Assembly (NCBI RefSeq): GCF_021026375.1
Contig: NZ_JAJNDB010000005.1
Location: 434,001-498,000 of the forward strand
From: Actinomycetospora endophytica
Lineage (GTDB): Bacteria; Actinomycetota; Actinomycetes; Mycobacteriales; Pseudonocardiaceae
Length of the DNA stretch: 64,000 nucleotides
Reading direction: 5' to 3'
Under the pieces are notes generated by a model, which was given only the letters and a program-made list of their open reading frames with translations, was not told where the DNA came from and ran no database searches. The position numbers were made by a program, and so were the translations under genes. Below, in pieces: positions 2,179 to 59,728 of the stretch (its first letter is position 1; the number at the start of each line of letters is the position of its first letter).

Positions 2179-2769
2179 ATGCCGGCCGGAGAGTTCGCCC
2201 GGGACGATTCCACCCCGGACAGGAGCGGTCGTCCCGACCAGTACGACCCTCTCCGCCCGCAGCTCCCCCTCGAGTCCGTTCCGCGCGGGCGCTTCGACGT
2301 CCCCGGGATGGGCGGCCTGCGGCTGCGGTCGCGGTTCCTGATCGCGACCTGCAGCCCGACATCGCGCCCGTGGGCTGCTGTCGCGCTCTGCCTGACCGGG
2401 GTGGTCGGACTGTTCCTGCCGCTGCTGATCGGCGTGGGCGGGCACGGCTGGACCGCGGTCGAGCTGGCCAAGGGTCCGACCCTCGTCGCGCTGGGGCTCT
2501 TCGTCGTCCTGACCCTGCTGCCGGTGGTCGACCTCGTCCTCGGCCACGAGCGTGTCACCCCGTGGCTCGCGTTCCCGGCCGCGCTCGGCGTCCAGGTGAC
2601 CATCGCGCTGGCCGTCGTCGCCGCGGCGCGGGGCGCGGGTGCGCTGCACCCCGAGCTCTCGACGGGGGTCGCGGCGCCCGGCGCGGGCCTGGTCCTGATG
2701 GTGGTGGCCGAGATCGGGCTCGCGGTGATCGGCGGGATCGGCTTCGCACGTCGCCGCCAGGTGCGCTGA
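2179..2769 (+). CDS. Four-helix integral membrane protein of unknown function
   Basis: The 196-residue protein starts with about 55 polar, Pro/Arg-rich residues, followed by about four hydrophobic segments (roughly residues 62-82, 92-112, 125-148 and 163-188) and a short basic tail (ARRRQVR). That topology suggests a small plasma-membrane protein with a cytoplasmic N-terminus. No catalytic motif is recognisable. Its TGA stop lies inside the outer arm of a long inverted repeat shared with the convergent DUF1501 gene. The gene is monocistronic as far as can be seen. Confidence 0.72.
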   Translation: MPAGEFARDDSTPDRSGRPDQYDPLRPQLPLESVPRGRFDVPGMGGLRLRSRFLIATCSPTSRPWAAVALCLTGVVGLFLPLLIGVGGHGWTAVELAKGPTLVALGLFVVLTLLPVVDLVLGHERVTPWLAFPAALGVQVTIALAVVAAARGAGALHPELSTGVAAPGAGLVLMVVAEIGLAVIGGIGFARRRQVR

Positions 2770-2835
2770 CGCGCTTGTGAGCAGTAATTGACGCCCTGGC
2801 GTCAATTACTGCTCACGAGCGCGTCAGCGCACCTA
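2759..2835. repeat. Palindromic intergenic element, copy 1 (convergent gene ends)
   Basis: Inner arms GTGAGCAGTAATTGACGCC (2777-2795) and its exact complement (2798-2816) leave a 2-base loop. Outer arms read GTGCGCTGACGCGC on the left and its near-complement on the right. The stops of both flanking convergent genes fall in the outer arms. Related copies lie at 10726-10804 and 15836-15907. Probably a bidirectional terminator spread as a repeat. Confidence 0.85.
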
Positions 2836-4077
2836 CAAGGCGAACGTCCCGCCGGGATGCCCCGGCACCACGCGGTCGGGGTCGGCGCCGAGCACCTTGT
2901 CGACCAGTGACGCGTAGACGTCGCGGAAGTCGACGTGCGCGCGCAGGTCCCCCGCGTACAGATCGGTCAGGCTGGGCTGCTGGCCCGTGAACCCGCCGCG
3001 CATCCCCGCGCCGAGCAGCAGCACCGGGCTCGCGGTGCCGTGGTCGGTGCCCTCCGAGGCGTTGGCCTGGACCCGCCGTCCGAACTCGGAGTACACGAGC
3101 ACCGTCACCTGACGGCCCGCGTCCGATCCGCCGAGCCGCTGCACGAACCCGGTGAGCGCGGCGTCCAGCTGCCCGAGGAGACGTTCCTGGGTGCCGCGCT
3201 CGTCGGCGTGGGTGTCGAACCCGCCGAGCGAGGCCGAGTACACCCGCGTCGGCACCCGCGCCTCGACCAGCCCGGCGATCAGATCGAGCTGGTGCCCGAG
3301 GTCGCCGCCCTTCCCACCGGTCTTCGCGACGGCGGGCTTCACCGTGCCGCCCTCGATCGCCGGGTCGACCGCCGCGCGCAGCGTGCCCAGGTGCCCGATC
3401 GAGGCCGCGGCCTTCGCCCGCCACGGGTCGTCGGTCGGGTCGGGCGCCGCGAACCCGGCCACCGCCCGGCCGAGCGCCCCGCGGGGCAGGTCGAGCGTGC
3501 CGGGCGCGACCGTCGACCCCGCCCGGTCGGCGCCGACCAGCAAGGGCGGCAGCACCGTCTCCGTCGAGAGCGCCCGCAGCGGGTCCGCCGCCGACCCGTC
3601 GCTCACCGCGTCCAGCCAGCGCCCCAGCCAGCCGGCGCCGTTCGGGCTCGTCGGGGACGCGGTCTGCCAGATCGCCATCGAGCGGAAGTGGCTGTGGTCG
3701 GGCTCCGGGTAGCCGACCCCACGCACGATCGTCAGCGATTCGCCGCTGTCCCAGAGCCCCTTCAGCCCGGTCATCGCCGGGTTGAGCCCGATTCCCTCAC
3801 CGACGTCCAGGACGTCCTGGGCGCGGTAGGCGAGCTCCGGCCGCGCCTTCTGGTACGCCGGGTCCGACGCCGGGACCACGGTGTTCAGCCCGTCGTTGCC
3901 GCCGTAGAGGGTGACGACGACGAGCACGCCCGCGTTCGGGTCGAGGTCACCCGCCGAGGCGAAGAGGTCCTCCCACGGCACCGTCGTGGCCCCCACGACG
4001 GCGAGGGCGGCGGCCCCCGTCACCGCGGTCGCCGTCAGGAAGCGACGACGGGTCAGGGCCGGGACGGTCGTGCGCAT
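2833..4077 (-). CDS. DUF1501 family Tat-exported protein
   Basis: A 414-residue protein of the DUF1501 (sulfatase-like fold) family. It begins with a twin-arginine signal (RRRFLTATAV at residues 9-18, then an Ala/Val-rich core), so export by Tat is expected. LVVVTLYGGNDGLNTVVP and the central DHSHFRSMAIWQTA are typical of the family, as is the later GRRVQANASEGTDHGTAS. The enzymatic role is not known. The ATG at 4077 shares a base with the TGA of the upstream DUF1800 gene, the standard bacterial pairing, which implies they act together at the cell surface or in the periplasm-like space. Confidence 0.9.
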   Translation of the reverse strand: MRTTVPALTRRRFLTATAVTGAAALAVVGATTVPWEDLFASAGDLDPNAGVLVVVTLYGGNDGLNTVVPASDPAYQKARPELAYRAQDVLDVGEGIGLNPAMTGLKGLWDSGESLTIVRGVGYPEPDHSHFRSMAIWQTASPTSPNGAGWLGRWLDAVSDGSAADPLRALSTETVLPPLLVGADRAGSTVAPGTLDLPRGALGRAVAGFAAPDPTDDPWRAKAAASIGHLGTLRAAVDPAIEGGTVKPAVAKTGGKGGDLGHQLDLIAGLVEARVPTRVYSASLGGFDTHADERGTQERLLGQLDAALTGFVQRLGGSDAGRQVTVLVYSEFGRRVQANASEGTDHGTASPVLLLGAGMRGGFTGQQPSLTDLYAGDLRAHVDFRDVYASLVDKVLGADPDRVVPGHPGGTFAL

Positions 4078-18243: not shown

Positions 18244-18513
18244 TCAGCAGCCCTCCGCCCGATCGCGCCCGAGGACGCGTCGGCCCGGGAGCCGGGACAG
18301 TTCCTCGGTCACGCACAGCTCGCGGGTCAGCGAGAGCTCGCCGTAGATGACCTGCTGAGCGACCTCGTGCAGCGCGGTGCCGGTCATGGCGGCGTAGGTG
18401 CGCAGCCCCCGGTCGGCCTCGCCGACGTCCACGGTGAGGACCTCGGCGAGCACCCCCTGGGCGCGCAGGATCTGGATGTCGCGCCAGTCGCGCGGGTTCA
18501 GTCCCTCGGCCAT
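18244..18513 (-). CDS. ANTAR-like domain protein 1 (degenerate)
   Basis: An 89-residue protein consisting of little more than an ANTAR-like three-helix segment: RAQGVLAEVLTVD, then LRTYAAMTGTALHEVAQQV, aligned with the AKGILM...L+EVA pattern of RNA-binding antiterminators. The ATG at 18513 has a GGGAGG ribosome-binding site five bases upstream; a GTG at 18585 would add 24 polar residues. No receiver or GAF sensor is present. It is the first of nine ANTAR-like genes in the next 11 kb. Confidence 0.7.
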   Translation of the reverse strand: MAEGLNPRDWRDIQILRAQGVLAEVLTVDVGEADRGLRTYAAMTGTALHEVAQQVIYGELSLTRELCVTEELSRLPGRRVLGRDRAEGC

Positions 18514-18668
18514 CGGACCTCCCGGGTCCGGCCTCTCGCGCTTCTCGGGCGAAGCGACGACAGGGTCCGGGCCGTCACTGCTCACCGGGATGGTCCTCCG
18601 GCCGGGCGCCGGGATCCACCCTCGGAGCGAGGCTCGCAGTCCGGTGAGAGCCGACGCGCAGGGTGCTC

Positions 18669-18863
18669 TCAGGCCCCGGTCCGCCCGGCCTCGAGGACGA
18701 CCAGGTCAGCCAGCTCGAGCACCGGGATACCGGTCAGGCTGGACCCGTCCATGATCCACTCGAACGCCCGGCCCGCGGGCAGTCCGAGCGCGTCCATCAC
18801 CACACCCGCCGCGGCGGCGACCCGCGCCTCGTTGGCGAGGACGGGTTCCGGTGGATCGACCAT
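18669..18863 (-). CDS. ANTAR-like domain protein 2 (minimal, degenerate)
   Basis: A 64-residue protein that is nearly all ANTAR-like: AAAGVVMDALGLP, AFEWIMDGSS and VLELADLVV. The aromatic and basic positions thought to contact RNA in canonical ANTARs are largely missing, so RNA binding may be lost or altered. The ATG at 18863 is preceded by GGAG; longer in-frame starts up to 18974 exist but add unstructured residues. It may act by dimerising with other ANTAR proteins; that is inference. Confidence 0.6.
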   Translation of the reverse strand: MVDPPEPVLANEARVAAAAGVVMDALGLPAGRAFEWIMDGSSLTGIPVLELADLVVLEAGRTGA

Positions 18864-18994
18864 CGGGGCTCCGATCGAGATCGGCGTGGGTGCCAGGCCA
18901 CGCGGCACGGCAAACGGCTGTCCCCCCGGATCGTTGACGACGGTACCGGTCGGGCTCGGCCGCCTCCCGGGCACCGCCTCGGTCAGCTCAGACC

Positions 18995-19159
18995 TCAGGC
19001 GAGCGCACGGAGATGCCGCCCGAAGGACCCGCCGGCCAGGCGCGCGCTGCGGGCCACCTCCGCGAGCGCGGTGACGTCGTGGTCACGGAGCCAGTCGGAC
19101 AGCGTGGTGTCCGTGAGCGGCGGGTCGTCGAGGACGCTCAGGTCGGTGCCGGGTGTCAT
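18995..19159 (-). CDS. Small protein of unknown function (54 residues)
   Basis: A 54-codon frame with a good ribosome-binding site (GGAG five bases before the ATG at 19159). The protein begins MTPGTDLSVLDDPPL and continues as one or two amphipathic helices (LSDWLRDHDVTALAEVARSA). No family recognised. It lies between two ANTAR-like genes on the same strand and may belong to the same regulon. Confidence 0.5.
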   Translation of the reverse strand: MTPGTDLSVLDDPPLTDTTLSDWLRDHDVTALAEVARSARLAGGSFGRHLRALA

Positions 19160-19853: not shown

Positions 19854-20606
19854 TCAACGGCCGATGCCCGGGATGTCCGCGTCGTCGACCACGTGCCCGC
19901 CACTTCGCCGCACTGTCTCGTCGTGGACCCACCGCGCCACCTCGGCGAGCTTCATGTTCGTCTCCTGCGAGGATCTGACCAACATCTGGAACGCGGCGTC
20001 GTCGTCGACCCGGAAACGCTCCATGAGGATGCCCTTGGCCTGCCCGATCAGATCCCGGCTGTCGACCGCACGCTGCAGCGACTGCGTCTGTTCGCTGCCG
20101 TAGAGGAGCATCGCGGCCTGCAGGGCGAACAGCCCGGCGGTCAGCCGCGACTCGGCGTCGAAGGCATCGGGCCCGGCGGCGTACAGGTTGAGCGCGGCGC
20201 GCATCCCGCCGCCGGTGTGCAGCTCGCTGGAGAGCATCGAGCGGTAGCCGGACTCCGTGGCGTGCGGGGCGAACCGGGGCCAGCGCGCCGCGTCCTCGCC
20301 GGCGAGATCGCGCACCAGCACGCTGCCGTCCTCCGGCGGATCCACGATCGCGGTGACGCAGGGCCCCTCCTGGAGCTCGCCCTGCAGCTGGTCGAGCTTG
20401 GTGACCGCGTCGCTGGTGGGGTTGCGGGAGACGACCTGGCCGCTGTCGGTCATGGAGATCCCGCCCGCGTCGGCGGCCGGCACCGTGCTCACGGCCGCTG
20501 CGACGATGTTGCTGAGCGTCTGGTCCAGGTCGCGGATGCTGCGCTTGGCGGTCAGGTCATGCGCCGCGCGGCGCAGTGCGGTGGTCAGGTCGTGGCTGGT
20601 ATCCAT
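19854..20606 (-). CDS. GAF and ANTAR domain-containing regulator
   Basis: A 250-residue antiterminator-type regulator. Residues about 15-170 form a GAF sensor (IVAAAVSTVPAADAGGISM, then a hydrophobic beta-sheet core ending LNLYAAGPDAFD). Residues about 185-240 are a canonical ANTAR domain: GQAKGILMERFRVD, AFQMLVRSSQETNMKLAEVARWV. The ATG at 20606 is clear. Such proteins bind paired hexaloop hairpins in leader RNAs to prevent termination, usually in response to a ligand. No histidine kinase partner is nearby. Confidence 0.9.
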   Translation of the reverse strand: MDTSHDLTTALRRAAHDLTAKRSIRDLDQTLSNIVAAAVSTVPAADAGGISMTDSGQVVSRNPTSDAVTKLDQLQGELQEGPCVTAIVDPPEDGSVLVRDLAGEDAARWPRFAPHATESGYRSMLSSELHTGGGMRAALNLYAAGPDAFDAESRLTAGLFALQAAMLLYGSEQTQSLQRAVDSRDLIGQAKGILMERFRVDDDAAFQMLVRSSQETNMKLAEVARWVHDETVRRSGGHVVDDADIPGIGR

Positions 20607-21121: not shown

Positions 21122-21607
21122 TCAGCGGAAGTGCTCGCCGTGATGACGGCCCATCGAAGCCAGCAGCCGGGTGAGCTCGTCGCGGTGCGGCTGGCCGGTG
21201 TCGATGTCGCGCAACTCGATCAGGAAGCGGTCGGCGACGACGGCCAGCTTGACGTTCGCCTGTTGGGAGACCCAGACCAGGGCGTCGAACGCCGCCTCCG
21301 CGCTGATGTCGAAGGCGCCCATGATGACGCCCTTGGCCTGGTCGATCTGGGCGCGGGAGTCGAGCGCACGGAGCAGCGCCTCGATGCGTCGCTCACCCGC
21401 CTCGGCGCGCTCCTCCGCCTGCTCGGCCCGACCCTCGGCGCTCGAGGCGCGTGCCTCGGCCTGGTTCGCGCGGTCTTCGGCGTCGCGGACCCGCTCGTCC
21501 CCCGCCGCGGCGCCTCCGCCGTTCTCGGCCGAGCGCGGCCTGGTCGCGTGGTGACGGTGCGCGGACGGCGGTTCGGCGCCCGGGACGGTGTGGGTCAGCT
21601 CGGTCAT
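21122..21607 (-). CDS. Coiled-coil ANTAR protein A
   Basis: A 161-residue protein with a disordered N-terminus (1-45), a charged heptad coiled coil (about 46-80: repeated A-E-x-R-A patterns) and a canonical ANTAR domain from about 84 (DSRAQIDQAKGVIMGAF, AFDALVWVSQQANVKLAVVADRF). GGAGAG precedes the ATG at 21607. It is a close paralogue of the protein at 28622-29098 (same layout, same DSRA-IDQAKGV-MG junction). The coiled coil replaces a sensor domain, so oligomerisation rather than ligand binding may control it. Confidence 0.85.
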   Translation of the reverse strand: MTELTHTVPGAEPPSAHRHHATRPRSAENGGGAAAGDERVRDAEDRANQAEARASSAEGRAEQAEERAEAGERRIEALLRALDSRAQIDQAKGVIMGAFDISAEAAFDALVWVSQQANVKLAVVADRFLIELRDIDTGQPHRDELTRLLASMGRHHGEHFR

Positions 21608-21826
21608 GACGCTCTCCGGTGCGGTCTGCCGCGTTGGAGCCGGAGCAGCGTCGTGTTGTGAGCCGCCGGGGCCTGCTCGTTCCCTGCCGTCGCGTCGCAA
21701 TCTTGATCCGGAAAACGATGCGACAGGCCATTATGCGAGCACGTGGCCTCGGCGGTGGTCAACCGACCGGCACGAGGAATCCAGGCCCGTCACGAACCCG
21801 CGCCTGACGGGTCGCGGCAGAACCCG

Positions 21827-22645: not shown

Positions 22646-23029
22646 TTAGGCGGTCCGGCGGCAACAGCCGGGTTCGTCCTGCGACTCGGCGGACGACGGC
22701 AGTGCCCGCAGCCCGAGGTCGGCAGCCCGGGCGGTGTCGCCGTATCCGTCGGCGGGCCCGTCATTGCCGACGGGCTCGTCGTCCTCCTCGCCCCATCGGG
22801 TCACCATCAGCCCGTCCGGGCCGCACCACACCAGGAACGACGCCGTTCCCGGGTGGATCGTGTCGGTCGAGTAGTCCTTGTAGAGCACGACGGCCATGGA
22901 CCCGTCCGGGGAGTTCCGGACGAATCCCTTCGCCCACTCCAGCGCCGTCACCAGGTCGCGGAAGCGCTGAATCTCGGTGCCGGCGCACGGGTCGGCGCTG
23001 AGCACCTGCCAGTGAAGCCCCAGCGCCAT
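22646..23029 (-). CDS. Stand-alone HWQVL-domain protein, function unknown
   Basis: A 127-residue protein containing a compact alpha/beta domain: [52 protein letters not shown]. The same domain forms the N-terminus of the ANTAR-AraC fusion at 26004-26972, sharing most of these motifs. I do not recognise a named family. Start taken at ATG 23029 by alignment with that paralogue; ATG 23050 is also in frame. No good ribosome-binding site is visible at either. Confidence 0.65.
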   Translation of the reverse strand: MALGLHWQVLSADPCAGTEIQRFRDLVTALEWAKGFVRNSPDGSMAVVLYKDYSTDTIHPGTASFLVWCGPDGLMVTRWGEEDDEPVGNDGPADGYGDTARAADLGLRALPSSAESQDEPGCCRRTA

Positions 23030-23178
23030 GACGCGACCGTACTCAACCATCGCCGCACGTCCCGGCGTCGTGCAGTCGGTCTCAGGACGCGGGCCTGATG
23101 ACTCATCGCCCACACCGGCGCCGCCCGTACCGGGTCGCGACGGCCGTGCCCGGGAGAAACTCGACCGATCCCGGGCCG

Positions 23179-23547: not shown

Positions 23548-24240
23548 TCAAGCCGGTGGCAAGTGCCATTTCTCGCGCAGCCGATGACCTTCGCGACGCT
23601 CGTCGTCGGCCTTGTCGCGGGCCCGCTGCGCGGACTCGCGCGTGTCGTCGGATTCAGCCGCACGGGCTTGATCCGCTCGAGCTTCCCTGGCGTCGGCGAC
23701 GTGGTCGAGTGTCGAGGCGACCTCGTCCGCCATGTGAGCAAGTCGGCCGGCCAGATGTCGAGCATGTGCACCGGCTTCTGCGGTTCGCACAGACACCACG
23801 TCGGCCTTGCGGACGATCTCATCGTGCTGGCGATCGATCAGCGAGCCGACCCGGTACAGCGCGGCGTCGAGGCGAGCGACACGGCTGTCAGCTCGAGCCA
23901 CCGCTTGGGAGGCGCGGTCTCGCGCGGCCCTCGACCGGCCGAGGACGTCCGCCAGGGTCCGGCCCCGAGCCCGAGACCGCCGGTCCAGAGCGGCCTCACG
24001 CGCATCGACCCGCCACTCGCGGGCGTCGGCGTCATGCTCCCGCTGATCGGCTTCGGCCTCCCGCCGGTCGGCCTCGTAGTCGCGCTGATCAGCGGCTCGG
24101 TCCCGAGCATCCGCACGTGCATCCCGCTGATCAGCGATCGACTCTCCGCGCCCGGTCGGCATGGGACGAGGGCCGGGGACCGTTCCGGGCTCGAGGCCGG
24201 CGCCAAGAGTCGGTACCTGATGCATCGGGCCGCTGTTCAT
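23548..24240 (-). CDS. Charged heptad-repeat protein A
   Basis: About 230 residues. After about 35 Pro/Gly-rich residues comes a run of seven-residue D-x-R-x-x-A-D type repeats (ADARDRAADQRD...) predicted to form a long, highly charged helix, then a moderately hydrophobic helical region (DRASQAVARADSR, MADEVASTLDHVADAR) and a conserved tail ERREGHRLREKWHLPP. Paralogue of 24395-25225, sharing the repeats and the tail. Start ATG 24240 chosen over TTG 24252. No enzymatic motif; probably a structural or scaffold protein. Confidence 0.65.
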   Translation of the reverse strand: MNSGPMHQVPTLGAGLEPGTVPGPRPMPTGRGESIADQRDARADARDRAADQRDYEADRREAEADQREHDADAREWRVDAREAALDRRSRARGRTLADVLGRSRAARDRASQAVARADSRVARLDAALYRVGSLIDRQHDEIVRKADVVSVRTAEAGAHARHLAGRLAHMADEVASTLDHVADAREARADQARAAESDDTRESAQRARDKADDERREGHRLREKWHLPPA

Positions 24241-24292
24241 GATGTCCGCCAAGCCAGAGGGGAGAACTCAGGTCGTCTCCATGTCCCGGACC

Positions 24293-24394: not shown

Positions 24395-25225
24395 TCAGTC
24401 CGGTGGCAGGCCCCAGCTCTCCCGCAACTCCTGGCTCTCACGGCGCTCACCAGCCGCCAGGTCACGGGCCCGTTGCGCGGCCTCCCGCCTCGAGTCGGAA
24501 TCAGCGAGGTCGGCCTGCTCAGCCCGTGGTTCCCTCGTCTCGGCGACACGGTCGAATGTCGTAGCGATGTCATCGGCGGTGGATGCGAGCTTCGCTGCCG
24601 CGCCCTGGGCACCGTCCCGCGCGTCGACCCCCCGAGCCGTCATCCTGATCTCACGTTCGATCTCGCGCTGCTCGCGCTCGGACTGCCGACGGTCCCGGTG
24701 CAGCGCCTCGCGCGAGCGCTTGAGGTGCTCCTCGGCCCGGGCCACCGTCTCGGCCGCGCGCTTCAATGCTGCGTCCGCTCGACTGAAGCGATCGGCCGTC
24801 GGCACTCCGCTGGCCCGCGCCAGCTCGTCCAAGGACGCCTCGCGCACGTCGGCCCATCCCTCGCGCACATCGGCCTGGTGCTCTCGCCGGTCGGCACCGG
24901 CCTGCCGCTGCTCGGCGGCCTCCTCCTGCTCGTCGGCCGCCATTTCCCGCTCGTCGGCGGCGCGGTCCCGGGCATCAGCGGCCCGGTCCCGGGCGTCCGC
25001 GCGCGCCTCCCGCTCATCGGCGGCCCGGTCCCGCTCATCGGCGGCCCGGTCCCGCTCATCGGCGGCCCGGTCCCGCTCGTCAGCGGCGCTCGCCCGGGCA
25101 TCGTCTATCGCCTGCCGCGCCTCCGGGTCCGCGTCCGGCCGGCCGACGGGCTCGGGACCGTCCGACGGGACCGGTCCGAGCGTGGACGACTCGTCAGCCA
25201 CCGGAACCTCCGGGCCCTTCCTCAT
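24395..25225 (-). CDS. Charged heptad-repeat protein B
   Basis: About 276 residues. The repeat unit DERDRAA occurs several times in exact tandem (residues about 48-75) and then in degenerate form to about residue 130, followed by a second charged helical stretch and a tail ERRESQELRESWGLPP matching its neighbour's. The DNA under the exact repeats is a 21-bp direct repeat (25021-25083), open to slippage. Start ATG 25225; an ATG at 25258 is in frame. Long solvent-exposed helix, no known family; likely architectural. Confidence 0.65.
   Translation of the reverse strand: MRKGPEVPVADESSTLGPVPSDGPEPVGRPDADPEARQAIDDARASAADERDRAADERDRAADERDRAADEREARADARDRAADARDRAADEREMAADEQEEAAEQRQAGADRREHQADVREGWADVREASLDELARASGVPTADRFSRADAALKRAAETVARAEEHLKRSREALHRDRRQSEREQREIEREIRMTARGVDARDGAQGAAAKLASTADDIATTFDRVAETREPRAEQADLADSDSRREAAQRARDLAAGERRESQELRESWGLPPD
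25021..25083. repeat. 21-bp coding direct repeats
   Basis: Units 25021-25041 and 25042-25062 are identical and 25063-25083 differs at two positions; each encodes D-E-R-D-R-A-A on the minus strand. More degenerate units lie on both sides. Copy number could vary without frameshift. Confidence 0.85.
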
Positions 25226-25277
25226 GATCTCCACCAGGCCACGAGGAACCACCCACATCGCGGCCGGGTCGCGAGCA

Positions 25278-26003: not shown

Positions 26004-26972
26004 TCACCTGCGCAGCGTGTGACTCGGGGAGTTCCCATAGGTCGCGCGGTACTCGACGGAGAACCGTCCGGGGTGGTTGAACATCCACTGCGCAGCCACC
26101 GAGGCCACGGTGGCGCCGTTCGTCGAGTCCGCATCGACGAGGTCGCGGTGTGCGCCCTCGAGACGGACCTCGCGCAGGTAGGCCGACGGTGTCTGTCCGA
26201 GATGTTTCTGGAATGCGTACTCCAAAGCGCGACGACTGGCCCCGGCCGCCTCGGCGATCTCCTCCACGGAGATCTCCCGTCGCGCGTGCTCGTCGATGAA
26301 GGCCACCGCTCGACGGACCATGGCGGGCTCGGGCGGGCCGAACTCGTCGACGGTGTCCTCCAGCGTCCGCTCGATCACCCCGTGGGCGATCTCGTCGATC
26401 CCGACCCCGCGCTCGGCGGCCATGTCGAACAGCATCGTCGACGCCTCGCCCACGGTCTGGGAGTAGCGCTCGATCAGGACACCGACCGCCGCGGACACCG
26501 GATCGTGGATCGCTCGTAGTGCGACCTCCGCACCCCGGGAGACAGCGCGCGACCGGTCGTCCTCGAGAGGATCGCACTGCAGCGGTTCCGGAGGGGCGGG
26601 CTCGGTCCCGTTCTCGCGGTCCGAGTGGTTCCCGGTGCCCGGCACGGCTCGGAGGCCGAGATCAGCCGCGTGGACGGTCCGGGCCAGGACCTCGGAGCGG
26701 GCCGCCGCGACGTCGTCGGGGGTGTCCCGTCCCTGCCACTCGGTGACCATGAGGCCTTCCGCGCCGGACCAGACCATGAACGCGGGCACGGCGGGATCGG
26801 TCTCGTCCGTGGCGCCGTCCTTGCACAGCACCACCGCCGTCGACCCGCCAGGAGCGCTCCGGACGTGGCCCTTGGCCCACTCCACGGCGGTCACCTCGTC
26901 GGCGAACCGGTGAATCTCGGTCCCCACGAGCCGATCGGCGCTGAGCACCTGCCAGTGGTGGTCGACCCGCAT
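26004..26972 (-). CDS. Three-domain regulator: HWQVL domain, ANTAR-like segment, AraC-type HTH
   Basis: A 322-residue protein with an unusual architecture. Residues 1-112 repeat the stand-alone domain of 22646-23029 ([30 protein letters not shown]). Residues about 150-205 follow the ANTAR pattern ([33 protein letters not shown]). Residues about 213-322 are an AraC-type double HTH ([41 protein letters not shown]) closely resembling the regulators at 52.5-59.6 kb. It could couple RNA and DNA recognition. The ATG at 26972 aligns with the paralogue's start. Confidence 0.82.
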
Positions 26973-28621: not shown

Positions 28622-29098
28622 TCAGGGCAGGTGGGGTCCCCGGCGTCGTCCTTGGGCCGCCAGGACGCGGGTCACCTCTTCGCGCAGTCGCCCACCGAAC
28701 TCGGTGTGCCGGACGTCGGCGAGGAACCGCTCGGCGATGGTGGCGAGCTTGATGTTGGCGTGTTGAGACACCCACGCCAGTGCCTGGAAGGCCGGCTCCG
28801 GCTCGAGGTCGAACACGCCCATCAGCACGCCCTTGGCCTGATCGATCGGGGCTCGGGAGTCGAGGGCGTACTCGAGGTCGGCGATCCGGCGCTCCGCGGC
28901 CTCGGCGCGGTCCTCGGCTCGGATGGCGCGTTGCTCGGCATGGATACGTCGTTGCTCGGCGATGTAGGTGGTCCGGTGCGGGTCTCGCTCGTCGCCGACG
29001 CCGTCGTCGTGACGCGCCGCGATGATCGAGTGCACCCTGGCGAGCGGGAGTTCGTCGGCGGGGCTGCCTGTCGTAGCGGACCTGGAAGTGCTGTTCAC
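28622..29098 (-). CDS. Coiled-coil ANTAR protein B
   Basis: A 158-residue paralogue of 21122-21607: disordered start, charged coiled coil (about residues 45-75, IAEQRRIHAEQRAIRAEDRAEA), then ANTAR (DSRAPIDQAKGVLMGVFDLE, FQALAWVSQHANIKLATIAERF). GTG start at 29098 with an excellent AGGAGGG site. Upstream on the minus strand a TATAGT -10-like sequence lies inside an inverted repeat TCCGATGG (29188-29195 and 29223-29230), a candidate operator. Confidence 0.85.
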   Translation of the reverse strand: MNSTSRSATTGSPADELPLARVHSIIAARHDDGVGDERDPHRTTYIAEQRRIHAEQRAIRAEDRAEAAERRIADLEYALDSRAPIDQAKGVLMGVFDLEPEPAFQALAWVSQHANIKLATIAERFLADVRHTEFGGRLREEVTRVLAAQGRRRGPHLP

Positions 29099-29187
29099 GG
29101 CACTTCCCTCCTGCTGGAAGTGGTGCCTGGGCGGCCTCGTTCCCTTGAACCGCCGAGGCATGACCCGGAAGCACCCTCGTAGGAGTA

Positions 29188-29230
29188 TCCGATGGACGCA
29201 TCCGACATCCACTATACGAACACCATCGGA
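29188..29230. promoter_or_regulatory. Inverted repeat around a -10-like box upstream of ANTAR gene B
   Basis: TCCGATGG (29188-29195) and CCATCGGA (29223-29230), 27 bp apart, flank the minus-strand TATAGT at about 29211-29216. Probably the promoter and operator of the gene starting at 29098. Confidence 0.45.
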
Positions 29231-29291: not shown

Positions 29292-29501
29292 TCAGTCTCC
29301 GCGCTGACACCTGCGGATGACGTCTGCTTCGGCGACGACCAGCTCGGCGACATCGACGAGAGTCATCTGGAGCCTGTCGGACCACAGCACGAGTCGCTCG
29401 AAGCCCTCGGGGCCGAGAACCCCGGTCCGTTCGATGAGTCTGTCGAGCCTGCGACCGAGAGGGTCGTATGGATCGCCTGCGCTCGGCTCGGAAGGTGTCA
29501 T
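29292..29501 (-). CDS. ANTAR-like domain protein 4 (minimal, degenerate)
   Basis: A 69-residue protein: LDRLIERTGVLGPEGFERLVLW and LQMTLVDVAELVVAEADV align with the helices of ANTAR, with the first AKG motif lost. ATG 29501 is preceded by GAGGA; ATG 29513 is also in frame. It is the ninth ANTAR-like frame of the block and, like those at 18244-19503, lacks a sensor. Confidence 0.6.
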   Translation of the reverse strand: MTPSEPSAGDPYDPLGRRLDRLIERTGVLGPEGFERLVLWSDRLQMTLVDVAELVVAEADVIRRCQRGD

Positions 29502-29597
29502 TGCCGTCCTCATTCCGACTGCTCGGGTGATTGGTGCGGGTGCGCAGGCTCTGGTCCACCCGTAGGTGCGGCCGGCGGCGCGACCTCGAACTCGGCG

Positions 29598-31301: not shown

Positions 31302-31379
31302 TGGTGGGGCAGGTCGGGTTCGAACCGACGACCTGACGGATTATGAGTCCGCTGCTCTGACCGGCTGAGCTACTGCCCC
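31302..31379 (-). tRNA. tRNA with CAT anticodon (tRNA-Met, or tRNA-Ile2)
   Basis: Read on the minus strand from 31379: acceptor GGGGCAG pairs with CTGCCCC (31312-31306), D arm GCTC...GAGC, anticodon loop CTCATAA (anticodon CAT), T arm GTCGG-TTCGAAC-CCGAC, discriminator A, and encoded CCA (31304-31302). Elongator Met, initiator Met and lysidine-modified Ile2 all carry CAT; sequence alone does not settle which, though no mismatch typical of initiators is seen at the acceptor end. Confidence 0.9.
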
Positions 31380-52354: not shown

Positions 52355-52542
52355 GGGATCGAGGCTCGTCGTGGGCACCCGCCCTTGTCCAGCAGGTTTC
52401 CTGGCACCGGGCTCGGCGAACCGCCCGGTACCCGGAGACGCCCGGTTCTGTTGCTGGCCAGTGCGCCGCTTGGTGGATAGGTTGTGCGCGGTCAATGGCT
52501 AATATATGCGTTTCCCGGGGCCGATTCTGACGGGGGGATGTC

Positions 52543-53523
52543 GTGCTGGACGTGTCAGCGGTGTCGCACGCCGAGGTCGACACCACCGATCCCGAGTTCG
52601 CCCATCAATGGATCTCCGACACGTACACCGAACACACCCCGCTCCTCCGCGGCGACCGTGCGGACTTCCGCATGCGGGTGGCTTCCCTGGAGACCGACCG
52701 CTTCCGGATCGACGATCTCGTGCACACGATGAGCGTGGAGACCGCCGTCGCGCCGTACCAGCGCCTGATCGTCAACCGGGTCCGCTCCGGGCGCTACCGG
52801 ATGGAGATGGGCGGCCGATCGCTGTCTCCCGGCCCCGGGGACCTGACCGTGATGGACCCGCTGAGTGCGGGCTGGACCACCTGGGACCTGCTCGACGTCG
52901 AGGTCGTGGCCCTCGACCTCCACGCCGCGCAGGTCGTCGCCGGGGGGCTCAGCGGGCTCATGCCCGAACGGGTGCGGTTCCACCTGGACGTGCCCATCGA
53001 CGCGGCCCACGAGCAGTACTGGAACCGCACCGTCGACCACATGCGGCGACACGTCCTCGCCGACGCCGAACTGATCGCCCAGCCCCTGGTGCGGGCCGAG
53101 GCGTTCCGCCAGCTCGCGTCCGCCGTCGTCGTCGTGTTCCCGAACAACGCGCTCGACTCGCTGCGGGATCCCACCGCGCCGCCTGCGGGCAACGGCGAGC
53201 CGGCCATGGTGCGCCGGGCCGTCGAGTTCATGGACGCCAACGCCCATCGCGGCATCGACATCAGCGAGATCGCCACCGCCGCCCGGATCGGTCCCCGAGG
53301 ACTGCAGGCCGCATTCCGCAAGCACCGGGGCCAGTCGCCGCTGACCTACCTGCGGCGGGTGCGGCTGGAACGGGCCCACCGCGACCTCCAGGCCGCCGAC
53401 CCGACGCGGGGCGACACCGTCGCGGCGATCGCCGCGCGGTGGGGCTTCAGCCACGCCGGCCGGTTCTCCATCCTCTACCAGGGCCAGTTCGGCCGGCCAC
53501 CGAGCACGACGTTGCGGGTGTGA
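52543..53523 (+). CDS. AraC family regulator, array member 1
   Basis: A 326-residue regulator: N-terminal AraC-binding-like domain (PF14525-type; ISDTYTEHTPLLRG, YQRLIVNRVRSGRYRME, LSPGPGDLTVMDPLSAGW) and C-terminal double HTH ([42 protein letters not shown]). Intact. GTG start at 52543 with a GGGGGGA site. First of five paralogues between 52.5 and 59.6 kb. An AT-rich hairpin (53691-53717) follows at some distance. Confidence 0.9.
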   Translation: MLDVSAVSHAEVDTTDPEFAHQWISDTYTEHTPLLRGDRADFRMRVASLETDRFRIDDLVHTMSVETAVAPYQRLIVNRVRSGRYRMEMGGRSLSPGPGDLTVMDPLSAGWTTWDLLDVEVVALDLHAAQVVAGGLSGLMPERVRFHLDVPIDAAHEQYWNRTVDHMRRHVLADAELIAQPLVRAEAFRQLASAVVVVFPNNALDSLRDPTAPPAGNGEPAMVRRAVEFMDANAHRGIDISEIATAARIGPRGLQAAFRKHRGQSPLTYLRRVRLERAHRDLQAADPTRGDTVAAIAARWGFSHAGRFSILYQGQFGRPPSTTLRV

Positions 53524-53834
53524 GCCACCCGATCGCCCGCCGCTCTCCTGCTCACCACCGTTCGGTGGACGACGGTTCCCGCAGGCCGCCATTCCGTCCG
53601 GAGGAGGACAGCGAGAGCGCACGAAACGATCTCCGCGAGTTCCGTCGCGCCGAGGACCGGCGGGTCTACACTTCGTTCGCTCAGTGGACTGCTTTTTCGA
53701 CATTCGGCTGAAAAAGCCGTGACCCGTCGTCGCGAAGGCGTAGAGATCCGATCCCGTCGGGCAGTTCTTCGCCCGGCGTCGGAGGATCTCGCAGCGAGTG
53801 CGGGACGACGAGCTCGGTCGGGAAGGGTCGACGG
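53524..53834. other. Spacer between AraC genes 1 and 2
   Basis: A 311-bp gap without a gene. It contains the hairpin GCTTTTTC (53691-53698) with GAAAAAGC (53710-53717), unusually AT-rich for this genome and probably a terminator, and then the promoter of the next gene. Confidence 0.5.
53691..53717 (+). terminator. AT-rich hairpin between AraC genes 1 and 2
   Basis: An 8-bp stem GCTTTTTC/GAAAAAGC with an 11-base loop, about 170 bp after the first AraC gene's stop. The run of T residues in the stem differs from the GC-rich terminators elsewhere in the window. Confidence 0.5.
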
Positions 53835-54808
53835 ATGACATCTCCGGTGCAGCGTCTGAACTACGCGACCACCGACGCGGACGAGGGCACCGAGCAGATC
53901 CGGTCGCTCTACACGGACCACGCACCGTCGTTCTCGGGCAGCGCCCGTCAGTACCGCCTGGAGTTGAGCTCGGCGGCGGTCGAGAGTGGCTACGGGCGGC
54001 TCAGCGTGGACCTCCTGAGCAACACCATGCGGCTGACGGCCCCGTGCGACCCGGTCTCGGCGCTGATCATCGTCTCGGTCACCTCGGGCTACGCGAGCTA
54101 CCGCGTCGGCCGGGAGCAGACCGGACCGATCTTCCTGGCGCCGTACTGGTCGGAGTTCCAGTGCGAGTGGGACGACATGTCCTGCGCGCTGGGCGTGCTC
54201 GACCTCGACGGGGCGCGTCGGGTCGCCGCCGAGGTGACCGGGCTCGACGAGCGGTCGGTCACCTTCACGGGTATGGAGCCGGTGACGGCCGAGCGGGCGC
54301 GCCACGTGTCCACGGTGGTGCACCACATCGCGGGGAACGTGCTCAGCAACGACGAGGTCATGGCGAGCCCGCTCGCGCGCGGCGAGGCCTTCCGAGAGCT
54401 GGCCGCCGCAGCGGTGCTGACGTTCCCGAACACCGCCCTGGAGCAGCTGACCGACCCGAGCGCGCCGCCGCCCGGGTACGCCGAGCCCGCCACGGTGCGT
54501 CGCGCGGTGGAGTTCATCGATGCACACGCCCAGGAGGACATCGACATCACCCGGATCGCCGAGGCCTCCGGGATCGGCCCACGCGGGTTGCAGCAGGCGT
54601 TCCGCAGGTATCGCGACGAGACGCCCTGGAGTACCTGCGACGGGTGCGGATGGAGGGCGCCCACCGCGACCTGGAGGCCGCCGACCCGACCCGCGGTGAC
54701 ACCGTCGGAGCCATCGCCGCCCGGTGGGGCTTCGCCCATCCCGGACGGTTCGCGATCGACTACCGGCGGTCCTACGGCCGCTCACCCGGCGAGACGCTGC
54801 GGTGGTGA
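53835..54808 (+). pseudogene. AraC family regulator, array member 2 (single-base frameshift)
   Basis: The ATG at 53835 (GGGAAGGG site) opens the same ligand-binding domain ([30 protein letters not shown]) and the first HTH ([21 protein letters not shown]). At about 54625-54627 (CCC in gacgccctgg) one base appears to be missing: the original frame runs into unrelated sequence, while the next frame continues perfectly ([35 protein letters not shown]) to TGA 54808. Either a real inactivation of the second HTH or a homopolymer sequencing error. Gene 3 starts six bases later. Confidence 0.8.
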
Positions 54809-54814
54809 GGCTCG

Positions 54815-55816
54815 ATGAGCGACGACGCCATGAGCAGTGCGGTCGTCCGCGGCGGATTCGCCACCGCCGATCCGCGGAAGGCCGAGGAGTTCCTCAGCAC
54901 CACGTACGTCGACCAACGCCTCCAGCTCACCGGCCCGCGGGAGGGCTTCACCGCCGCCGTGTCCTCGCTGTGCACCCCCGACCTCGCGGTGAGCCGGCTC
55001 GAGACGAGTGCCGGGTTGATACACACCGTGGACGAGGTGCCCGCCGACGTCCTGATCGTCTCCGCTCCGACGAGGGGGCACATCGGCTACTTCGACAACG
55101 CGTATCACGATGTGCAGACGGTGGTCGCGGATGCTGTGCTCAGTCCGCCGCTCGGTCGCGTGCACGTGGAGTCGGACAACCTCGACATCACCATCGTCAC
55201 CCTCGACCGGGGCCGGGTCGCCGACTACGCCGCCAGCCTGACGGGGCTCGACCCGCGCACCCTGGCCTTCGACGGCCTGGCGCCCCTGACCCCGGCGATG
55301 GCCCGGTACTGGACCGACGCCGTGGCCCACGTCCGTGAGGACGTGCTCGCCGACCCCTGGGCCGGCGAGCAGCCGATCCTGCTCGACCAGGCGTTCCGCA
55401 CGTTGGCCGCCGCGCTGGTGTCGACCTTCGCCAACAACGCCCTCGCCCGCACCACCGACCCCCAGGCACCGCCGGTGCGCGGTGACGTCTCCGCGGCGAC
55501 CGTCCGCGAGCTCGCCGACTATCTCGACACCCACGCCGACCGGGCGATCGGGCCGGCCGACATCGCCGCCGTCGGGGACGCGCCCTACCGCGAGCTCGCC
55601 GAGGGGGTCCGGCGACGGTACGGACGCCACCCCGCCGAGCTCCTCTGGCGGGCGCGGCTGCACGGGGTGCACCGTGATCTCCTCGACGCCGACCCGCACG
55701 CCGGCGTCATCGTCACCCACGTGGCCGCCCGCTGGGGGTTCGGCCGGCCCGCCCGGTTCCGGATCGCCTACGCCCGGGCGTTCGACGAGTCGCCGGAGGA
55801 CACGCTGCTCCGCTGA
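54815..55816 (+). CDS. AraC-like regulator, array member 3 (divergent HTH)
   Basis: A 333-residue paralogue starting six bases after gene 2, so in one operon with it. The ligand domain is kept (AEEFLSTTYVDQRLQLTG, GHIGYFDNAYHD). The HTH region is shortened and altered (IGPADIAAVGDAPYRELAEGVRRRYGRH), although the final VAARWGFGRPARFRIAYARAF-DESPEDTL is typical. Very close in length and HTH variant to array member 5 (58574-59575), so these two form a subtype. Confidence 0.85.
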   Translation: MSDDAMSSAVVRGGFATADPRKAEEFLSTTYVDQRLQLTGPREGFTAAVSSLCTPDLAVSRLETSAGLIHTVDEVPADVLIVSAPTRGHIGYFDNAYHDVQTVVADAVLSPPLGRVHVESDNLDITIVTLDRGRVADYAASLTGLDPRTLAFDGLAPLTPAMARYWTDAVAHVREDVLADPWAGEQPILLDQAFRTLAAALVSTFANNALARTTDPQAPPVRGDVSAATVRELADYLDTHADRAIGPADIAAVGDAPYRELAEGVRRRYGRHPAELLWRARLHGVHRDLLDADPHAGVIVTHVAARWGFGRPARFRIAYARAFDESPEDTLLR

Positions 55817-55912
55817 CCCGGTGTCGACAGAGCTGCGCTCTGCGGACAATGCCGCGTTCTACGGCTAATCTGTTGCCCACGTCCGGACTGTCGGGGAGGC
55901 GGGAGGGGAGTC

Positions 55913-56898
55913 ATGGCGGAGACCGGCGGCCCGGCGGTCGAGCGTCTGCTGCTGGAGACCGGGGACGTCGAAACGGGGCACGACCTGCCGCGTCAGCTCT
56001 ACGCCGACCACACCCCGCGCCTGTCCGGGAACGCCGAGAACTACCGGTTCCGCTAGCCGTCAACACCCTCGGCGGGCTCGGCGTGGACCACATGAAGCAT
56101 TCGCTGCTGCTGCACGCCGACCTGGAGCCCTACGAGCTGTTATTGGCCGTGAGCATCGACGGCGGGCGGCTGACGGTCAGCTCCGGCGGCTTGACCGCGC
56201 AGGCCGGGCCCGGCGAGGTGCTGCTGGTCGATCCGCTCCGGCCGGTCAGCGTCGAGCAGGACGACCTGAGCCTGACGCCGATCCGCATGGACCTGACAGC
56301 CACGTGCGCGATCGCCGAGGAGATCACCGGCGTGCCCGCCGCCGACGTCCGTTTCCATCTGTCGCGCCCGCTCAGCGACGCACACGGCCGCCGGTGGCAG
56401 GCCGCGGTGGAGCACGTCAGCCGGGACGTGCTGGCTCATGACGAGATCGCCACGAACCCGCTGGTACGCGCCGAGACCTTCCGCTACCCGGCCACCACGC
56501 TGCTGACGACGTTCCCCAACACCGCACTCGAGGCCGCCTCCGACCGGCCCGCGCCACACACCTTCGGGGCCGAGTCCGCCGCGCTGCGGCGAGCGACGAC
56601 CTTCATCGACGGCAACGCCCACCGCGACATCGGCCTCGCCGACATCGCCCAGGCCGCCCGCATCGGACCCCGCGGGCTCCAGCACCTGTTCCGCCAGCAC
56701 CGCAGCCAGACCCCGCTCGGCTACCTCCGCCAGGTCCGCATGGCCGGGGCGCACCGCGACCTGCAGTCCGCCGACCCCACCGGCGGCGACACCGTGAGCA
56801 CGATCGCCGCCCGCTGGGGGTTCGCCCACCCTGGCCGGTTCTCGGTCGAGTACCGGCGCCTGTATGGCTGTCCGCCGAGCACGACACTGCGTTCCTGA
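55913..56898 (+). pseudogene. AraC family regulator, array member 4 (early frameshift)
   Basis: ATG 55913 has an excellent GGGAGGGGAG site and starts a normal paralogue (LPRQLYADHTPRLSGNAENYRFR), but a TAG follows directly (56054). The adjacent frame continues the homology from LAVNTLGGLGVDHMKH through the full ligand domain and HTH (IGLADIAQAARIGPRGLQHLF, ISTIAARWGF-type) to TGA 56898. Adding one base at about 56053 restores the gene. Real inactivation or sequencing error; the rest is well preserved, so the event is recent if real. Confidence 0.8.
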
Positions 56899-59655: not shown

Positions 59656-59728
59656 CTCCTCCGACTGGACTCGAACCAGTAACCCTGCGATTAACAGTCG
59701 CATGCTCTGCCGATTGAGCTACGGAGGA
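59656..59728 (-). tRNA. tRNA-Asn (anticodon GTT)
   Basis: Read on the minus strand from 59728: acceptor TCCTCCG pairs with CGGAGGA (59663-59657); D arm GCTC...GAGC, anticodon loop CTGTTAA (GTT), T arm CTGG-TTCGAGT-CCAG, discriminator G (59656). CCA is not encoded. Directly downstream lies CCGCAGGTCAGCGACTT (59649-59633), identical to the sequence after the other tRNA. Confidence 0.95.

Follow-up and report, generated by a model that had tools for sequence, protein, structure and literature searches.

An AraC-type regulator of Actinomycetospora carrying an ANTAR-derived segment devoid of RNA-contact residues

The gene at positions 26004-26972 (minus strand) of the window, which is the whole 64-kb stretch of Actinomycetospora endophytica DNA that was analysed, encodes a protein of 322 amino acids in an unbroken frame running from an ATG at 26972 to a stop codon. 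Its codon signal is coding-like, with a GC3 of 0.88. Residues 1-113 (26634-26972, minus strand) form an orphan N-terminal domain that matches no Pfam family over the cut-off. A linker with a weak codon signal follows (residues 114-154; 26511-26633, minus strand), and then an ANTAR-derived segment that lacks the RNA-contact residues (residues 155-203; 26364-26510, minus strand) and an AraC-type double helix-turn-helix (HTH; residues 217-322; 26007-26324, minus strand). An earlier note on this DNA had described a 322-residue protein combining an N-domain, an ANTAR-like stretch and a full AraC double HTH, and all of these parts are indeed present. It had also pointed to an occurrence of the N-domain on its own, which is borne out by residues 3-118 aligning at 51% identity (E 4.0e-32) with the product of a separate gene at 22646-23113 (minus strand). 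These two are the only strong copies of the orphan domain found among 61 relatives and 298 genomes of the order, and both lie in the window; eight further order genomes give weak partial matches (E 0.002-0.005). A mobile origin of the domain was considered and rejected, as it matches no PHROGs family and none of 37 pattern matches in viral contigs was confirmed. Among plasmid and phage records, none aligns over 80% of the fusion protein. A Rhizobium plasmid protein (L215), whose alignment begins at residue 109, lacks an ANTAR match and was discarded as a fusion.

The surroundings are rich in ANTAR proteins. Three canonical ones served for comparison in the Pfam scans and the contact table: a GAF-ANTAR protein at 19854-20606 and ANTAR proteins at 21125-21700 and 28625-29212, all on the minus strand. 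Eight ANTAR-like matches at E ≤ 1 fall between 18346 and 29438, within about 11 kb. Between the fusion gene and the paralogue of its N-domain lie two genes (23548-24252 and 24395-25258, both minus strand) whose proteins carry long charged repeats such as ADERDRAADERD; neither has a Pfam match at E ≤ 1.

The AraC region is complete. Pfam scans return HTH_18 with 72.6 bits at residues 239-322 and HTH_AraC with 49.6 bits in two stretches, as expected of the full double HTH that had been proposed, and the best solved relative, 3mn2, aligns with residues 219-322 (E 6.6e-13). We take this region to bind DNA, as predicted from what is known of the family. In its double HTH the protein is like other AraC/XylS regulators (PF12833, PF00165). 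It differs from them in what stands in front, which is not AraC_binding_2 or another known ligand domain but an ANTAR-derived bundle preceded by the orphan domain.

The origin of the middle segment is less obvious from a single profile match. Positions 13-54 of the Pfam ANTAR profile (PF03861) align with residues 159-200 at 19.8 bits (E 7e-4), which is below the curated cut-off of 27.3 bits. An ANTAR profile search of the organism's own genome finds the same place at E 7.4e-4; at E ≤ 1 this search also gives matches in 13 of 14 control genomes, and at E ≤ 0.001 in none of the 14. Related proteins from other genomes of the genus make the assignment much stronger. Sister proteins gathered from Actinomycetospora genomes fall into several architectures in an alignment (A1) of 31 rows, 26 of them fusion candidates and five AraC-only. 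In type I, to which the fusion protein belongs, the ANTAR part is immediately N-terminal to the AraC region (nine copies in four genomes, the fusion protein included). Type II has GAF, ANTAR and AraC in that order (ten rows), and type III has an N-terminal region without an assigned family followed by ANTAR and AraC (six rows). A protein of A. endophytica itself (L060) represents a fourth architecture. When eight type I segments (A7) are compared by hhalign with a set of canonical ANTARs (A8; nine sequences, three each from the window, the remainder of the same genome and other genomes of the genus), the probability is 96.9% (E 1.6e-10) over 51 ungapped columns, against 0.2% for segments of the same size and place from eight ordinary AraC proteins. 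The ANTAR ancestry of the type I segment, as judged by sequence comparison, is thus firm despite the Pfam score, and the ANTAR-like character proposed for the middle of the protein stands. Scanned singly, the seven type I sisters score 19.0-35.0 bits; three exceed the cut-off (L005 32.2, L035 30.2 and L040 35.0) and one (L002) lies at it. Pfam ANTAR matches at E ≤ 0.05 occur in 21 of the 31 rows of A1: in all eight of type I, the fusion protein included, in 8 of 10 of type II and in three of six of type III, the remaining three having no match at E ≤ 1. The value for L060 is E 0.0037. Through the alignment, an ANTAR ancestry is likely for all fusion types.

The type I segments have nevertheless diverged far, since a PDB search with their profile barely reaches EutV (E 0.23, ranked after PE proteins at 0.07-0.09), whereas canonical ANTARs of the genus used as query find five ANTAR structures. 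Among themselves the eight segments share ten invariant positions, with a mean column identity of 57%, and at the place of the canonical ANTAR aromatic residue they carry an A-S/I-x-M-L stretch.

What has changed is above all the face that touches RNA. As described for EutV, the contacts are made by R142, K143, K147, K149, E160, Y164, R168, M172, N173, R175 and R177; alanine changes at the sites tested there reduce or abolish RNA binding, and the affinity reported for RNA is low micromolar (PMC8934654). In the mutagenesis described for NasR the contact residues likewise form one cluster (PMC7496416). The numbering of structure 6wsh is that of EutV plus 2, as deduced from the sequence letters. 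Five core sites are conserved in the canonical ANTARs considered here: R142, K149, the aromatic at 164, N/R/K175 and K/R177. The fusion protein keeps none of these five, all 11 EutV contact positions are changed, and only one of them (Asp at 143) is shared with the genus's own canonical ANTARs. On average 4.86 of the five core sites are kept in 21 canonical rows, 18 of which were picked by a high profile score that favours conserved sites, so that only EutV, NasR and PAL are independent. The means are 0.12 for type I (eight rows, leaving out L044, a near-copy of L040), 2.30 for type II (10 rows) and 1.33 for type III (six rows); L060 keeps two sites, and a Pseudonocardia fusion (G175) none. 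By contrast, the five scaffold positions are preserved, with means of 4.6-5.0 in the fusion types and 4.4-5.0 across all groups. In type II, R142, K/R149 and the aromatic at 164 are each present in seven or eight of the 10 rows, so the RNA face partly survives there. The loss of contact residues is real, yet it is not specific to fusions, because seven standalone divergent ANTAR-like proteins of the same genome keep a mean of only 0.71 of the five core sites. RNA-contact residues are also lost in three short divergent ANTAR-like matches in the window, at 18247-18705, 18672-19082 and 29295-29597, the last being a control row that is probably one position out of register in the contact table. 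Compared with ANTAR antiterminators in general (PF03861; EutV, NasR, AmiR, Rv1626 and PAL), the fusion protein is alike in its predicted helical pattern and its scaffold positions; it differs in the lost contacts, in the unmatched first 12 positions of the profile and in the DNA-binding domain that follows the ANTAR part.

These features bear directly on the suggestion of the earlier note that a single regulator contacts leader RNA through its ANTAR part and promoter DNA through its AraC part. The firm ANTAR ancestry, the contact residues retained in type II relatives and the sheer number of ANTAR proteins in the genus (6-25 matches per genome at E ≤ 0.001, 303 over all 18 genomes) speak for such dual contact. 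Against it stand the complete change of the EutV contact positions, a segment charge of -4, where canonical ANTARs average +0.9, and a profile match that begins only at position 13 of 54. The window itself has no dual hexaloop with stems of at least 5, and with stems of 4 it has two, against 2.08 per shuffled strand, which is the level of chance. An Rfam scan of the window returns only two tRNA genes, at 31305-31379 and 59656-59728 (both minus strand). Dual contact is therefore highly improbable for this protein, and the suggestion is not supported; the changed face could still bind some other RNA. A more general point follows for annotation: a PF03861 match by itself does not mean RNA binding. 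Some type I proteins without RNA-contact residues have Pfam ANTAR E-values below 1e-4, the limit given in a survey of actinobacterial ANTAR proteins (PMC8164766).

The fusion architecture is real and recurrent. Among the matches listed, fusions with a direct Pfam ANTAR match (E ≤ 0.05) occur in 11 of 18 Actinomycetospora genomes (G000-G004, G006, G009, G011-G013 and G017, with G011 being A. succinea, G012 A. lutea and G013 A. sp. NBRC 106375), and in 15 of 18 when the aligned sub-threshold type II and III proteins of G005, G007, G015 and G016 are added. The matches listed include no fusion in G008, G010 and G014, of which G008 is 84% and G014 59% complete. In a collection of named records, a clear ANTAR-like segment ahead of AraC is found at 7 of 77 loci, all of them from Actinomycetospora. 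Outside the genus, two Pseudonocardia genomes carry ANTAR-AraC fusions: Pseudonocardia sp. EC080619-01 (G175; NZ_CP012185.1), with an ANTAR score of 21.5 bits (E 2e-4), and G916, with 16.0 bits (E 0.01). Matches were found in three of the 60 Pseudonocardia genomes searched, the third being weak and at a locus without an AraC frame. In overlapping sets of genomes from the family (249), the order (397) and the phylum (396), no more fusions are present among the matches listed and checked; rarer or more divergent forms outside the genus can be missed by such searches. Several early-starting matches outside the genus, taken up as candidate fusions, turned out to be ordinary AraC proteins. In A. 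endophytica, a locus on contig C16 (L059) has the reverse order, unfused: an AraC frame, one stop codon, and then a frame whose ANTAR-like segment is divergent (23.2 bits, E 4.5e-4), the frames being 1807-2253 and 2257-3672 (both minus strand).

The combination had been thought new, and no report of an ANTAR-AraC fusion was found in a literature search, a result that leaves room for an older record in a domain-architecture database. In the portions consulted, ANTAR domain and AraC figure as separate genes in two papers (PMC11854999; PMC4818103). The main text of a survey with 106 companion domains of AraC/XylS regulators does not mention ANTAR (PMC5882156), and one figure shows 17 ANTAR architectures (PMC3369931). 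What recurs is a seemingly unreported kind of AraC protein in which an ANTAR bundle has been recycled. Among the closest counterparts of the fusions are the actinobacterial GAF-ANTAR proteins such as that at 19854-20606: type II fusions, in which a GAF domain is present in the rows scanned, keep the GAF-then-ANTAR order. The fusions differ from these proteins by the added AraC region, and type I lacks a GAF match, the fusion protein having none at E ≤ 1.

The fusion had also been proposed as an evolutionary link between the ANTAR block and an array of AraC genes at 52.5-59.6 kb that its AraC region was said to resemble closely. The resemblance holds in part: identity to the AraC part is 35-62% in four array rows, but the best AraC-only row comes from another species, with 67% identity. 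In trees of the AraC region (104 columns), the remaining eight type I rows form a group of weak support (SH-aLRT 82-92) together with AraCs of the same genus, including the array members 52531-53520 and 55678-56895; the fusion protein lies outside this group in the free tree search. Constraining type I to one group improves the likelihood by 26, and the AU test allows type I as a single clade (p 0.83). Types I and III as one clade are likewise allowed (p 0.55), and the test does not reject a common origin of all fusions (p 0.26). Judging from their sequences, the AraC halves of type I could thus share a lineage with some of the array, and to this extent the proposed link is possible; an origin of the fusion from the two loci of the window finds no support, and fusions occur genus-wide. 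One AraC gene of the array seems to be split across two frames, 53712-54815 and 53744-54805 (both plus strand), with a partial match of 53.9 bits in one and 94.9 in the other.

If the ANTAR part has lost its RNA face, it might simply be a decaying, functionless linker in front of an AraC region that acts alone. The ANTAR part does evolve faster than the AraC part, dN being higher in eight of nine pairs and dN/dS in six of nine, though the counts are small and sequences are shared among the pairs. A. succinea carries a broken second type I copy next to an intact one (L032, 5980-7611, minus strand), and the absence of a Pfam ANTAR match from three type III rows would also agree with decay. Yet dN/dS of the ANTAR part is below 1 in all pairs (0.10-0.82 in eight, with dN 0 in the ninth), and the ten invariant positions and the A-S/I-x-M-L stretch have persisted across the eight type I segments. 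Some constraint acts on the ANTAR part, and its dismissal as a functionless linker is unlikely to be right. In the pair L035/L040, dS is 0.11 in the AraC part and 0.56 in the ANTAR part; the lower value is the outcome expected if the AraC part had undergone gene conversion.

The start region of the type I genes suggests how the three-part protein arose. Each of the remaining eight type I genes has a purine-rich Shine-Dalgarno-like stretch followed by ATG (seven) or GTG (one), situated five codons ahead of a D/N-P motif in seven and four codons ahead of its equivalent in L031. These start codons are our own reading: a stop codon lies six codons upstream of the proposed start in the near-copies L040 and L044, and the other six of the eight frames remain open upstream. 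In the fusion gene, GCGGAGG (26525-26531, minus strand) lies at the sister spacing, where the sisters have their Shine-Dalgarno stretch, and a CTA codon (26517-26519, minus strand) occupies the place where most of them start with ATG or GTG; the frame continues upstream into the linker and the orphan domain. The 41 codons of the linker have a GC3 of 0.78, below their GC1 of 0.83, while the AraC part has a GC3 of 0.83, and the linker is probably former leader DNA. The simplest history that we infer from these sequences is that the gene lost its start codon and was joined to an upstream gene resembling 22646-23113. If so, this apparent relic of a start codon would be one of the rare cases in which the assembly of a three-part regulator has left a visible trace. 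The same features might mean that internal initiation yields two separate products, one with the orphan domain and one with the ANTAR-AraC part, the three-part frame being merely open. The SD-like GCGGAGG ahead of the ANTAR part, an in-frame GTG (V158) about 24 bases downstream and the weak codon signal of the linker would suit this reading. It is, however, very unlikely, given that CTA is not a bacterial start codon, that the GTG is too distant from the relic and that the open reading frame is unbroken from the ATG at 26972.

Taken together, the protein is likely to be an AraC-type predicted DNA-binding regulator in which a worn ANTAR bundle has become a structural or protein-contact module. 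In the minimal type I gene, most of the ANTAR domain, from within helix 1, directly precedes the AraC double HTH, with an apparently normal start site ahead of the ANTAR part. The ANTAR part has retained the packing residues of a predicted helical bundle and shed its RNA-contact face; after this loss the bundle most likely has a structural or protein-contact function, be it dimer formation, contact with a partner or relay of a signal to the HTHs. In A. endophytica the start codon would have been lost, making the ANTAR-AraC gene the C-terminal part of a longer protein, to which the orphan N-terminal domain probably supplies the input. On this interpretation an RNA-binding output domain that had lost its RNA face has been re-used in DNA-binding regulators, and a single genus shows this in several architectures.

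A bolder version of the protein-contact role is that the ANTAR bundle couples canonical GAF-ANTAR signalling proteins to AraC promoter control in Actinomycetospora and Pseudonocardia. In line with it, a canonical ANTAR gene is the tail-to-tail neighbour of five of the six type III genes, at gaps of about 34-67 bases in four and about 860 in one. This idea is tentative and rather doubtful; if true, one sensory system would act on nascent RNA and on DNA via separate, partnered proteins. For type I no conserved neighbour gene was seen in eight contexts, and we therefore put forward no target. Both A. succinea and NBRC 106375 have a type I fusion, a GAF-ANTAR gene and a full AraC gene within several kb of one another.
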